DNA from: Cellulosimicrobium arenosum
GTDB lineage: Bacteria > Actinomycetota > Actinomycetes > Actinomycetales > Cellulomonadaceae
Assembly: GCF_014837295.1 (NCBI RefSeq)
Contig: NZ_JACYHB010000002.1
Location: 124,001-188,000, forward strand
Reading direction: 5' to 3'
DNA: 64,000 nt
Notes under the pieces: generated by a model
What the model was told of the DNA's origin: nothing
The model's database searches: none
What the model saw: the letters and a program-made list of their open reading frames with translations, nothing else
Made by a program: the position numbers and the translations under genes
In this document: positions 39,972-44,899 of the stretch, one piece after another
Layout: every line of letters starts with the position of its first letter
Position numbering within the stretch: the stretch's first letter is position 1

Positions 39972-41468
39972 TCACGACGAGGGCGCGCGGGCCTCGAGGA
40001 ACGCGTACACCTCGGTCTGGTCGACCCCTGGGAAGGCCCCGACGGGCATCGCGGCGAGCATCGACGCGTGCGGACGCGCGCTGGGCCACGCGTGCCCGGC
40101 CCAGCGGTCGGCGAGCGCGTCCGGCGGCCGGCGGCAGCACGCCTCGTCGGGGCAGCGAGAGGCGAGCCGCGACGTCGTGTCCCGGCCCAGGAACCAGCGC
40201 ACGTGCGCGAACGGGACGCCGACGCTCACCGAGAACGGCCCGTCGGCGCCGTCCTGCACCCGGCTCGTGCACCAGTACGTCCCGCTGGGTGTGTCGGTGT
40301 ACTGGCTGAACGGGCTGAGACGGTCCTCCATCCCGAAGATCGTGCGCGCCGTCCACGAGCGGCACACGTACTGGCCCTCGACCGCACCGAGCGGGTCGGC
40401 CGGGAACCGGACGCCGTCGTTCTCGTACGCCTTGTGGATCACCCCGGACTCGTGGACCTTCATGAAGTGCACCGGGATGCCGAGGTGCTTCGTGGCGAGG
40501 TTGGTGAAGCGGTGGGCCGCGGTCTCGTACGACACGGCGAACGCGTCGCGCAGGTCCTCGATGGAGATGGCGCGCGCCTCCTTGGCCGCGCGCAGCACCT
40601 TCACGGTGTGGCGCTCCGGCAGGAGCAGAGCCGCGGCGAGGTAGTTCGCCTCGACCCGCTGGCGCAGGAACTCGCCGTAGTCCGTGGGCTCGGCATGGCC
40701 GAGCACGTGCGGCGCGAGCGCCTGGAGCAGGGCCGACGTCGCGTTGGACCGGCCCCGCATCCGGTCGCTCGGCAGGTACACCCGGCGATGGTGCAGGTCG
40801 AGCACCGACCGGGTCGAGTGCGGCAGGTCCGGCACGTAGTGCAGCGTGAAGCCGAGGTGGGCGGCGATCTCGGTCGCGACCCGCTGCGGCAGCGGTCCGC
40901 CCGTGTGCCCGACGCCGGACAGCAGCTCGGCCGCGGCGTCCTCCAGCTCGGGGAAGTGGTTGTCCTGCGCGCGCATGGTCGCACGCAGCTCGGCGTTGGC
41001 GCGGCGCGCCTCCTCGGGCGTCGCCGCGCGCTGCGCGTGGAGGCGTTCGAGCTCGCGCCGGAGCGCGACGATCGTCTCGAGCGCGTCGGTCGGGAGCGAC
41101 TTGCCGACACGCACCGGCCGCAGGCCGAGCGCGTCGAGCAGCGGGCCGCGCTGCGCGCGCTCGAGCTCGATCTCGAGGGCGTCGCGCCGCGAGGGCGGCT
41201 CCGCGGCCAGGAGGTCGTCGAGGTCCGCGTCGAGCGCCCGCGCGATCGCCTGGAGCTGGGAGAACCGGGGCTCGCGCCGGCCGTTCTCCAGCAGGGAGAC
41301 CTGCGATGGTGCGCGACCGATCGCGGCGCCGAGGTCGCCCAGGGTCATGTGCTTCGCGGTACGCAGGTGCCGGATCCTGCGACCGATGGTGAGCGCGTCG
41401 GGCTCGCTCTCGAGCGGGAGCTGCGCATGTTCCACGGTTCCGGGAGGCCTCGAGGTCGGGATTGCCAT
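39972..41468 (-). CDS. ramB: RamB-like regulator of acetate metabolism (XRE HTH + ImmA/IrrE-type domain)
   Basis: Transcription factor of 498 residues. An N-terminal XRE helix-turn-helix has LGDLGAAIGRAPSQVSLLENG. The middle ImmA/IrrE-like domain has the metal motif decayed (HVLGHAEP where peptidases have HEXXH). The C-terminal short-chain fatty acid regulator domain contains paired Cys (YVCRSW, YWCTSR, CPDEACC). RamB represses aceA/aceB and acetate genes in Corynebacterium and Mycobacterium, and here it is divergent from aceA, supporting the same role. ATG 41468 is preferred to GTG 41483. No ribosome site is visible. Confidence 0.9.
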   Translation of the reverse strand: MAIPTSRPPGTVEHAQLPLESEPDALTIGRRIRHLRTAKHMTLGDLGAAIGRAPSQVSLLENGRREPRFSQLQAIARALDADLDDLLAAEPPSRRDALEIELERAQRGPLLDALGLRPVRVGKSLPTDALETIVALRRELERLHAQRAATPEEARRANAELRATMRAQDNHFPELEDAAAELLSGVGHTGGPLPQRVATEIAAHLGFTLHYVPDLPHSTRSVLDLHHRRVYLPSDRMRGRSNATSALLQALAPHVLGHAEPTDYGEFLRQRVEANYLAAALLLPERHTVKVLRAAKEARAISIEDLRDAFAVSYETAAHRFTNLATKHLGIPVHFMKVHESGVIHKAYENDGVRFPADPLGAVEGQYVCRSWTARTIFGMEDRLSPFSQYTDTPSGTYWCTSRVQDGADGPFSVSVGVPFAHVRWFLGRDTTSRLASRCPDEACCRRPPDALADRWAGHAWPSARPHASMLAAMPVGAFPGVDQTEVYAFLEARAPSS

Positions 41469-41650
41469 GACTGAGAGTGACACACGCCACGATGTGCGTA
41501 CAGCAGAAGATTGGCGATTCTTTCGCCCGATCGTGCTTGTCGTCCCGCTCGTGGAGGCACGAAGGTCGAGTCACGGACCTCGAACGGGGTCCACGCACCG
41601 GCCGCACGGCCCGCGAGCAGCGCGGGCCGGCACAGTCCCAGGAGGCACCC
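41469..41650. promoter_or_regulatory. ramB-aceA divergent control region
   Basis: Gene-free 182 bp between the two divergent starts. It contains a short dyad GGCGA-TTCTT-TCGCC (41513-41527) in the most AT-rich part of the region. This is the natural place for RamB operators and both promoters. It does not match the corynebacterial RamB box closely, so the operator assignment is inference. An AGGAGG ribosome site precedes aceA. Confidence 0.5.
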
Positions 41651-43021
41651 GTGGCACTCGTCAACGAGCCCACCATCGTCAGCCGCCGCTCGCCGTCCGA
41701 GTACGGGGGCGCGGGCGCACCCCCCTCGGCCCCCACCCGGCCCGGCGACCAGACCCAGACCGCCGACGAGCTCGCCCGCTCGTGGGGGCAGGACCCGAGG
41801 TGGGCCGGCCTGCTCCGCGACCACACCGCCGCGGACGTCGTCGCGCTCCGCGGCTCGGTCCGCGAGGACCGCACCCTGGCCCGCCGGGGCGCGGAACGGT
41901 TGTGGACGCTGATCCACTCCGAGGAGTGGGTCGCCGCGCTCGGCGCCATGACCGGCAACCAGGCCGTGCAGCAGGTGCGCGCCGGGCTCAAGGCCGTCTA
42001 CCTCTCGGGTTGGCAGGTCGCCGCGGACGCGAACCTGTCCGGTCAGACCTACCCCGACCAGTCCCTGTACCCCGCGAACTCGGTCCCCGCCGTCGTACGC
42101 CGCATCAACAACGCGCTGCTGCGCGCGGACCAGATCGAGACCGCCGAGTCCGGCCGCACGAGCCGGGAGTGGCTCGCCCCGGTCGTGGCCGACGCCGAGG
42201 CCGGGTTCGGCGGGCCGCTCAACGCCTACGAGCTCATGCACTCGATGCTCGAGGCCGGTGCAGCCGGCGTGCACTGGGAGGACCAGCTCGCGTCGGAGAA
42301 GAAGTGCGGCCACCTCGGCGGCAAGGTGCTCGTCCCGACGTCGCAGCACGTCCGCACGCTGAACGCCGCGCGCCTCGCGGCCGACGTCGCGGGCGTGCCG
42401 GCGGTGATCATCGCGCGGACCGACTCGCTCGCCGCAGACCTCCTCACGTCCGACGTCGACGAGCGCGACCGGCCGTTCCTCACGGGCGAGCGCACGTCCG
42501 AGGGGTTCCACCGGGTGCGCCCGGGCGAGGACGCGGTCATCGCTCGCGGGCTCGCCTACGCGCCGTACTCCGACCTCCTCTGGGTCGAGACCGGCACGCC
42601 GGACCTCGGCCTCGCCCGCAGGTTCGCGGAGGCGATCCACGCCGAGCACCCGGGCAAGAAGCTCGCGTACAACTGCTCGCCGTCGTTCAACTGGAAGCAG
42701 CACCTCGACGACGCGCAGATCGCGACCTTCCAGAAGGAGCTCGCCGCGATGGGCTACGCGTTCCAGTTCATCACGCTGGCCGGCTTCCACGCCGTCTCGC
42801 ACTCCATGTTCGAGCTCGCGCGCGGCTACGACGAGCGTGGCATGAGCGCCTACGTCGAGCTCCAGGAGGCCGAGCTCGCCTCCGAGGCCGACGGCTACAC
42901 CGCCACCCGCCACCAGCGCGAGGTCGGTACCGGCTACTTCGACCGGGTCGCCACCGCCCTCAACCCCCACGCCGCCACCCTCGCGCTCGCCGGTTCCACC
43001 GAGACCGCCCAGTTCCACTAA
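41651..43021 (+). CDS. aceA: Isocitrate lyase
   Basis: First glyoxylate-shunt enzyme; splits isocitrate into glyoxylate and succinate, allowing growth on acetate and fatty acids. It has 456 residues. The catalytic [11 protein letters not shown] motif is intact, as are AGWQVAAD-like [26 protein letters not shown] and the CSPSFNW segment. GTG 41651 follows an AGGAGG site. aceB follows after 135 bp on the same strand and the divergent ramB probably controls both. Confidence 0.97.
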
Positions 43022-43028
43022 GCCTCTC

Positions 43029-43134
43029 CGCGAGGTAGTACCTCAGTCCCGCGAGGTAGTACCTCAGTCCCGCGAGGTAGTACCTCAGTCCCGACAGCGG
43101 TACTACCTCGGCGGACCCCGGTACTACCTCGCGA
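43029..43134. repeat. Phased palindrome array between aceA and aceB
   Basis: Three perfect tandem 21-bp units, each containing the palindrome GAGGTAGTACCTC (at 43032, 43053 and 43074). Two reversed-type copies GGTACTACCTCG follow (43099-43110 and 43120-43131). The palindrome centres are 21, 21, 23 and 21 bp apart, close to two helical turns. The array occupies nearly the whole intergenic space. Confidence 0.85.
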
Positions 43135-43156: not shown

Positions 43157-44899
43157 ATGACCACGCTCACCACGTCCACCAGCTCACCCCCGACCTCCCC
43201 GAGCGGGACCCGGCCCGACGACGGCCCGCGGGGCGGGCACCCGGCCCGCCGTCCGCCGTCGGGCAGCCTGCGCGTCACGGGCGCGCTCGGCGAGCGGTAC
43301 CGCGAGATCCTCACGCCCGCGGCGCTCGACTTCCTCACCGCGCTGCACGACCGGTTCGTCGCCCGGCGCCACGAGCTGCTCATGGACCGCCAGCAGGGCC
43401 GGCAGGACGTCGCGGACGGGATCGACCCGGACTTCCGCGCGTCGACCCGGCCTGTGCGCGACGACCCGACGTGGCGTGTCGCCGGCTCGACCGGGGCGCC
43501 GGGCCTCGAGGACCGCCGCGTCGAGATCACCGGACCGACCGACCCAAAGATGGCGATCAACGCGCTCAACTCCGGGGCCAAGGTGTGGCTCGCGGACGCC
43601 GAGGACGCGTCGAGCCCGACGTGGCGCAACGTGATCGAGGGTCAGCTCGCACTGCACGACGCGATCCGCGGGACGCTGGAGCACACGAGCACCGAGGGCA
43701 AGCAGTACCGGCTCCGCTCGGCCACGCTCACCGACCTGCCGACGATCGTGTTCCGCCCGCGCGGGTGGCACCTCGTCGAGAAGCACGTGCGGTACGTCGA
43801 CCGGGCCGGGGTGAGCGTGTCGGCGTCGGCGTCGCTCGTGGACTTCGGGCTGTACGTCTACCACAACGCGCGCGAGCTGGTCGCCCGCGGGCGCGGGCCG
43901 TACGTCTACCTGCCCAAGCTCGAGGGGCACCGCGAGGCGCGGCTGTGGAACGAGGTGTTCGAGCTCGCGCAGGAGTGGGTCGGGCTGCCGCACGGGACGA
44001 TCCGCGCCACGGTGCTCATCGAGACGCTGCCCGCGGCGTTCGAGATGGAGGAGATCCTCCACGAGCTGCGCGACCACTGCGCCGGGCTCAACGCGGGACG
44101 CTGGGACTACCTGTTCTCCGTGATCAAGGCGTTCCGGACGCGCGGGGACGCGTACGTGCTGCCCGACCGCGCGCAGGTCACCATGACGGCCCCGTTCATG
44201 CGCGCGTACACCGAGCTCCTCGTCGCGACGTGCCACCGGCGCGGCGCGCACGCGATCGGCGGGATGAGCGCGTTCATCCCCGACCGGCGTCGTCCGGACG
44301 TCACCGAGCGCGCGCTCGCCCAGGTGCGCGCCGACAAGCGGCGCGAGGCGGACGACGGGTTCGACGGGACGTGGGTCGCGCACCCCGACCTGATCGACGT
44401 CGCCCGGGCCGAGCTCGACGCCGTGCTCGGCGAGCTCCCGCACCAGGTCCACCGACTGCGCGAGGACGTGCACGTGGGACGCGACGAGCTGCTCGACATC
44501 GGCTCGGCGCGACGCGGCGGCGCGACCGTCACGGCCGCGGGGCTGCGGGCCAACGTGTCGGTGGGCGTGCGGTACCTCGAGTCGTGGCTGCGCGGTGTGG
44601 GCGCCGCCGCGATCGACCACCTCATGGAGGACGCAGCGACCGCGGAGATCTCCCGCTCGCAGGTGTGGCAGTGGATCGCCGCCGGCACGCGCACGGAGAA
44701 CGGCGTGCCGATCACGCGCGAGCGCGTCGAGGCGCTGCTCGCCCAGATCGTCGACGACCTCCCCCGCCCGCCGGGAAACCGCGTGGACGACGCAGCGACG
44801 GTGTTCCGCACGGTCGCCCTGGCGGAGACCTTCCCGACGTTCCTCACGATCGGCGCCTACTCGCAGCACCTGGTCGGCTCGGCCGTGGACCAGCGGTAG
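43157..44899 (+). CDS. aceB: Malate synthase A
   Basis: Second glyoxylate-shunt enzyme; condenses glyoxylate with acetyl-CoA to malate. It has 580 residues, somewhat longer than the usual roughly 530-540 because of a Pro/Ser-rich head of about 35 residues. The family signature runs from KAFRTRGDAYVLPDRA to HAIGGMSAFIPD, and the active-site region LADAEDASSPTW and the GHREARLWNEVFELAQ segment are present. ATG 43157 follows a CGGAG. It is separated from aceA by the palindrome array. Confidence 0.97.
   Translation: MTTLTTSTSSPPTSPSGTRPDDGPRGGHPARRPPSGSLRVTGALGERYREILTPAALDFLTALHDRFVARRHELLMDRQQGRQDVADGIDPDFRASTRPVRDDPTWRVAGSTGAPGLEDRRVEITGPTDPKMAINALNSGAKVWLADAEDASSPTWRNVIEGQLALHDAIRGTLEHTSTEGKQYRLRSATLTDLPTIVFRPRGWHLVEKHVRYVDRAGVSVSASASLVDFGLYVYHNARELVARGRGPYVYLPKLEGHREARLWNEVFELAQEWVGLPHGTIRATVLIETLPAAFEMEEILHELRDHCAGLNAGRWDYLFSVIKAFRTRGDAYVLPDRAQVTMTAPFMRAYTELLVATCHRRGAHAIGGMSAFIPDRRRPDVTERALAQVRADKRREADDGFDGTWVAHPDLIDVARAELDAVLGELPHQVHRLREDVHVGRDELLDIGSARRGGATVTAAGLRANVSVGVRYLESWLRGVGAAAIDHLMEDAATAEISRSQVWQWIAAGTRTENGVPITRERVEALLAQIVDDLPRPPGNRVDDAATVFRTVALAETFPTFLTIGAYSQHLVGSAVDQR

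Follow-up and report, generated by a model that had tools for sequence, protein, structure and literature searches.

An array between aceA and aceB of Cellulosimicrobium arenosum is probably one copy of a dispersed REP/BIME-like repeat family

The 135-nt gap between the isocitrate lyase gene aceA and the malate synthase gene aceB in the window, the whole 64-kb stretch of Cellulosimicrobium arenosum DNA that was analysed, is filled by five palindromes: three direct units of 21 bp, identical to one another, and a pair in inverted orientation. In all likelihood they belong to a dispersed REP/BIME-like repeat family, of which the array is one short copy. The family is apparently undescribed, as a literature search, with subscription journals outside its coverage, found no earlier description of Cellulosimicrobium or Micrococcales intergenic repeats. 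Since the array is one copy of a dispersed repeat found beside unrelated genes, it does not appear to be a dedicated switch for aceA and aceB, and such arrays should not be taken for operon-specific operators. With this family, REP/BIME-like repeats at gene ends would be known from actinobacteria in which no RAYT is detectable, and in an unusual head-to-tail design with a 20/21-bp period.

The upstream cistron, aceA (41477..43021, plus strand, assigned by Pfam, start codon uncertain), ends with the TAA stop codon at 43019..43021 (+), and aceB (43157..44899, plus strand, assigned by Pfam) is the downstream cistron. Among named sequences, aceA has its nearest relatives in C. cellulans, C. funkei and C. 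marinum. The first CGAGGTAG begins 9 nt past the aceA stop, and 25 nt separate the end of the last unit from the aceB ATG at 43157. Direct unit 1, the 21-bp sequence CGAGGTAGTACCTCAGTCCCG, is located at 43031..43051 (+), and units 2 (43052..43072, +) and 3 (43073..43093, +) are identical to it; these units correspond to three identical, overlapping 24-nt copies with a period of 21 at 43028-43093. The two inverted copies at 43093-43131 comprise unit 4 (43099..43110) and unit 5 (43120..43131), both of which read CGAGGTAGTACC on the minus strand. Re-measurement reproduced exactly the five palindromes and three identical 21-bp units reported in the first-pass annotation, with core centres at 43038, 43059, 43080, 43103 and 43124 and spacings of 21, 21, 23 and 21. 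The sequence GAGGTANTACC occurs 8 times in the 64 kb, against 0.00 expected by chance. The 13-mer GAGGTAGTACCTC, proposed in that annotation for a genome-wide count, is largely confined to aceA-aceB: three of its four occurrences among the arrays fetched from the C. arenosum genome lie at this locus. The full 13-bp symmetry is thus mostly a local peculiarity, and the genome-wide unit is CGAGGTAGTACCGC.

The possibility of a genome-wide intergenic repeat, also raised in the annotation, was borne out, with about 12 places in the C. arenosum genome and hundreds in sister species, next to unrelated neighbours. The census of this 3.95-Mb genome (G000), made by pattern searches and sampled loci, gave 28 exact copies of CGAGGTAGTACC versus 0 for the reversed control, and 29 exact copies of GAGGTAGTACC, nearly all within the roughly 12 arrays. 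Neighbouring copies on the same strand were found 20, 21 or 42 bp apart, with no spacing imposed in the search. Pairs of CGAGGTAG at 20-22 bp are present in all 17 Cellulosimicrobium genomes (6-231 per genome), in 11 of the 18 taken from a second genus (15-289) and in one genome of a third (29). The reversed control was zero in the array-bearing genomes and gave single stray matches only elsewhere.

The units follow the consensus CGAGGTAG-nn-CC-nnn-GT-nnnn and repeat every 20/21 bp. In a logo of 354 units, each allowed one mismatch to CGAGGTAG at most, positions 1-8, 10-12 and 16-17 are kept and positions 18-21 are nearly free, the length being nonetheless constant. A 20-bp subfamily is seen in several species beside the 21-bp one. 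Because a fixed 21-bp spacing was the criterion for choosing the G006 and G008 loci, the evidence for 21 bp is in part ascertained, and only the own-genome and TACC-type samples are unbiased with respect to the period.

A period that stays at 20-21 bp despite nearly free positions 18-21 would be in line with a putative sequence-specific protein that binds the phased units cooperatively on one helix face at all arrays. Rather than regulating aceAB, such a binder would be of the nucleoid or topoisomerase type or would mark gene ends. The existence of long one-directional arrays fits this explanation, as does the concerted, clade-wide change between TACC and A[G/A]CC cores described below, which is expected from a shifted binding specificity. 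It is nevertheless unlikely: tandem duplication likewise keeps the period, the 20-bp subfamily coexists with the 21-bp one, and facing arrays have covarying arms, for which a protein bound to single units would have no need.

The first-pass annotation had also suggested cooperative protein binding as a means of setting the aceA:aceB ratio. Such an operator is not supported, as the units stand beside unrelated genes, two congeners have the same gene order and lack the array, and a RamB motif is absent from the region. A RamB-like regulator with HTH_3 and Peptidase_M78 (M78/IrrE-like) domains according to Pfam is encoded at 39972..41483 on the minus strand, divergent from aceA, and its position next to aceA would suit operator repeats through which RamB controls the glyoxylate shunt. 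No evidence ties this gene to the array, and the RamB-type motif of Corynebacterium, AACTTTGCAA, is not found near the array with up to 2 mismatches; its 4 matches at 2 mismatches in the 64 kb are at chance level. With the repeats at unrelated loci and missing from two congeners that have the same genes, control by RamB is scarcely credible. The motif search and the genome-wide spread of the units are the grounds for rejecting RamB or another local operator.

In Cellulosimicrobium and two related genera, many genes without relation to one another have arrays running sense-wise from their 3' ends. Among the 82 arrays outside predicted genes for which a neighbour was called, the nearest upstream gene is in sense orientation for 67 and antisense for 15; because the gene calls relied on codon composition, some distant array-gene cases are call errors. 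A stricter test placed the beginning of 44 of 96 arrays between -8 and +32 nt from a sense stop codon; in 16 of these the first unit supplies that stop codon with its own TAG. Close pairs of opposed arrays are face-to-face in 21 cases versus back-to-back in 4. At two other orthologous sites, the unit numbers vary (0+5, 6+2, 3+4, 2+5, 2+2, single remnants) or unrelated hairpins are found instead. At the orthologue of one array site of G006 (L255, L257, L259, L262, L264, L265, L267), other species carry unrelated strong hairpins starting with GCCGA[A/G]CA, which are perhaps another repeat family.

The check in related aceA-aceB loci suggested in the annotation found that 14 of 17 congeners carry a hairpin of the array family, whose arms covary and whose cores differ, and that the gap of Oerskovia rustica has a related 2+2 hairpin. 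The gap of G009 contains an unrelated hairpin, so that some hairpin is present in 15 of the 17. In G013 and G015 (C. marinum) the gap is 36-37 nt long, with the same gene order and neither an array nor a hairpin. The copy in the window is arranged as LLLRR (three direct and two inverted units), and most five-unit sister species have LLRRR, with the third position inverted. A different repeat hairpin, built on CGAGCTCGGTAG and located directly past the aceA stop, is present in the gap of Cellulomonas sp. Root485 (L104); it possibly represents an analogous family.

The TACC core is limited to the clade of G000, G013, G012 and G015 (support 0.99), except for 3 pairs in G004, and the others have A[G/A]CC-type cores at the same orthologous sites. 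The core type is set clade-wide and changed in concert, which could result from conversion, turnover or an altered binding partner. Different cores by clade at the same orthologous sites provide a natural experiment on what maintains the repeats: the RNA hairpin, protein binding or self-spread. It is conceivable, although improbable, that the arrays are sites of a putative sequence-specific protein that marks gene 3' ends in an actinobacterial family, and that its half-site was re-specified from A[G/A]CC to TACC genome-wide in one Cellulosimicrobium clade, with all arrays, that at aceA-aceB included, changing in concert.

The RNA of the aceA-aceB gap is predicted to fold into a two-stage intercistronic hairpin (43050..43133, plus strand), in which units 2/5 and 3/4 are paired, with an MFE of -72.3 kcal/mol and a z-score of -7.4 (-7.43). 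In the alignment of its outer helix 91% of cells are paired, and 13 double-sided changes were counted versus 5.5 in shuffles, with slid controls far lower. Departures from pairing on the sense strand are 28 A.C versus 8 G.U, the events not being independent, and as they are mostly A.C and not G.U, selection at the RNA level is not favoured at aceA-aceB. The structural part of the suggestion of an RNA stem between the two cistrons is thus supported by the z-score and the covarying arms; strand-specific selection for pairing is not. The fold, the covariation of the outer helix and the finding that 15 of 17 congeners have a hairpin of some kind, with G009 and its unrelated one counted, might indicate that the hairpin itself is locally selected, as an attenuator or stabiliser that sets the aceA:aceB ratio. 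This appears rather unlikely in view of the short, hairpin-free gaps of G013 and G015, the excess of A.C over G.U departures, the arrays beside many unrelated genes and the absence of a T-tract terminator.

Under the preferred reading of a dispersed repeat, the array copies would have spread through the genome by duplication or transposition and would have been homogenised by conversion or turnover. Their persistence past stop codons would reflect a tolerance of these places for hairpin- or terminator-like sequence, or a use made of it. Hairpins at 3' ends impede 3'-5' RNases (PMC7509114), and roles in termination and mRNA stabilisation were proposed for REPs (PMC3733652). The transcribed aceA-aceB copy may fold into a strong intercistronic hairpin, which may shield the 3' end of aceA and reduce read-through into aceB, as has been suggested for REPs elsewhere, and would not thereby be a dedicated regulator. 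An intercistronic hairpin acting on mRNA ends or read-through is the most likely local effect of the array, if it has any, though taken alone this effect has somewhat less than an even chance. Long one-sided arrays, for example that at C31:35.9k of the C. arenosum genome, are unable to fold into this hairpin.

The arrays are most similar to the GTAG-tagged REPs and BIMEs described by Di Nocera et al. 2013 (PMC3733652), which are located at 3' ends and whose TAG is often a stop codon. Both have GTAG in the unit and many intergenic copies near the 3' ends of convergent or unidirectional genes, and in both the flanking gene often ends with this TAG as its stop codon. Oppositely oriented partners are able to form larger hairpins, and species-specific subfamilies carry complementary arm changes. 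In the arrays GTAG occupies unit positions 5-8, with a conservation of 0.91-1.00 among the 354 units, which were preselected for no more than one mismatch to CGAGGTAG, and it pairs with the CTAC of the facing unit. The GTAG lies inside a paired arm, whereas in REPs it is an unpaired tag. A REP is defined by a 6-13 bp stem, while a single consensus array unit forms none: single consensus units fold no better than shuffles (z from +0.8 to +1.3), and the aceAB unit variant has a 5-bp stem with z of -1.2. Head-to-tail order is the rule in the arrays and rare in REPs. The 20/21-bp period and the opposite orientation (21 versus 4 close pairs) of BIMEs are present, although the units fail the REP stem test.

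Actinobacteria are unmentioned in the main text of the GTAG-REP paper (PMC3733652). Unlike REPs, the arrays are without a detected RAYT, as Y1_Tnp (PF01797; RAYT/IS200) is absent from the 17 Cellulosimicrobium genomes and from 18 genomes of the second genus, with controls such as E. coli being positive. Strict RAYT-driven REPs were rejected for want of a Y1 transposase in either genus, but RAYTs can be lost, and so their absence lowers rather than excludes REP membership. As the self-contained stem, the unpaired tag and the RAYT are all missing, the arrays are named REP/BIME-like and not REP.

Mycobacterial MIRU are likewise actinobacterial intercistronic tandem repeats with variable copy number, but they are not known to form facing inverted arrays. 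Their units are 40-100 bp long (outlined in PMC2734929), versus 20-21 bp in the arrays. Intrinsic terminators share with the arrays the position directly past stop codons and the strong hairpin, a likeness to which the unrelated hairpins that replace arrays at orthologous sites of other species belong. However, they need a T-run, and many arrays are one-sided; no T-run was found after the aceA-aceB stem, and an intrinsic terminator was therefore rejected. The array has no Rfam match above the gathering score, with only sub-threshold look-alikes of the microRNA hairpin type, and no known RNA family was found either for the array or for the body described next.

In many sister copies, facing arrays enclose a conserved body, in which a conserved 44-nt loop caps a long stem. 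This stem differs in sequence among loci yet remains paired. The arrays might be terminal repeats of a larger, MITE-like element with a body of 180-430 bp, which many sister copies have and the aceA-aceB copy lacks. Composites of array, body and inverted array, with bodies mostly 80-95% identical, occur at many loci in several species, and the array and the body stem share sequence. The explanation is possible but doubtful, since bodies exist without arrays (C13 and C29 of the C. arenosum genome, G003, G009 and the nrdE-nrdF gap in another genus), arrays exist without bodies, and neither a target duplication nor a transposase was found. The array-free sites of three loci show no clear target-site duplication, and a search of plasmids and phages for the body hairpin returned one weak partial match only, in an Embleya plasmid. 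A dispersed REP/BIME-like family, in which the aceA-aceB array is one short copy, remains the preferred reading.

The conserved-loop hairpin is also dispersed in its own right, as a 20-30 bp stem that varies by locus and a conserved loop of about 44 nt, TYCCATCCGCCGCTCGTTCCTCGCGGCTCCCGCCAGRCCCGCCAC (L224:1460-1580, at C13:22872 of the C. arenosum genome; L248, at C29:218102; L225-L253 in relatives). Each of the Cellulosimicrobium genomes searched has 2 to 40 copies of it; it has no Rfam match and is a candidate new structured element. Five genomes of another genus and G065 have one copy each between nrdE and nrdF, two genes recognised by eye from the peptides flanking the hairpin (L242-L247). 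Assembly breaks in G004 coincide with this hairpin (C2:26, C5:21, C7:15, C8:25, C9:31, C11:16, C12:20, C13:27, C17:17), which suggests that it blocks assembly there. In the C. arenosum genome, several large, apparently secreted proteins with similar C-termini ending in ..DCS/DCG adjoin repeat arrays (L029:1-12200 and L030), and an msiK RNA (RF01747) scores above the gathering threshold at L248:179-238.
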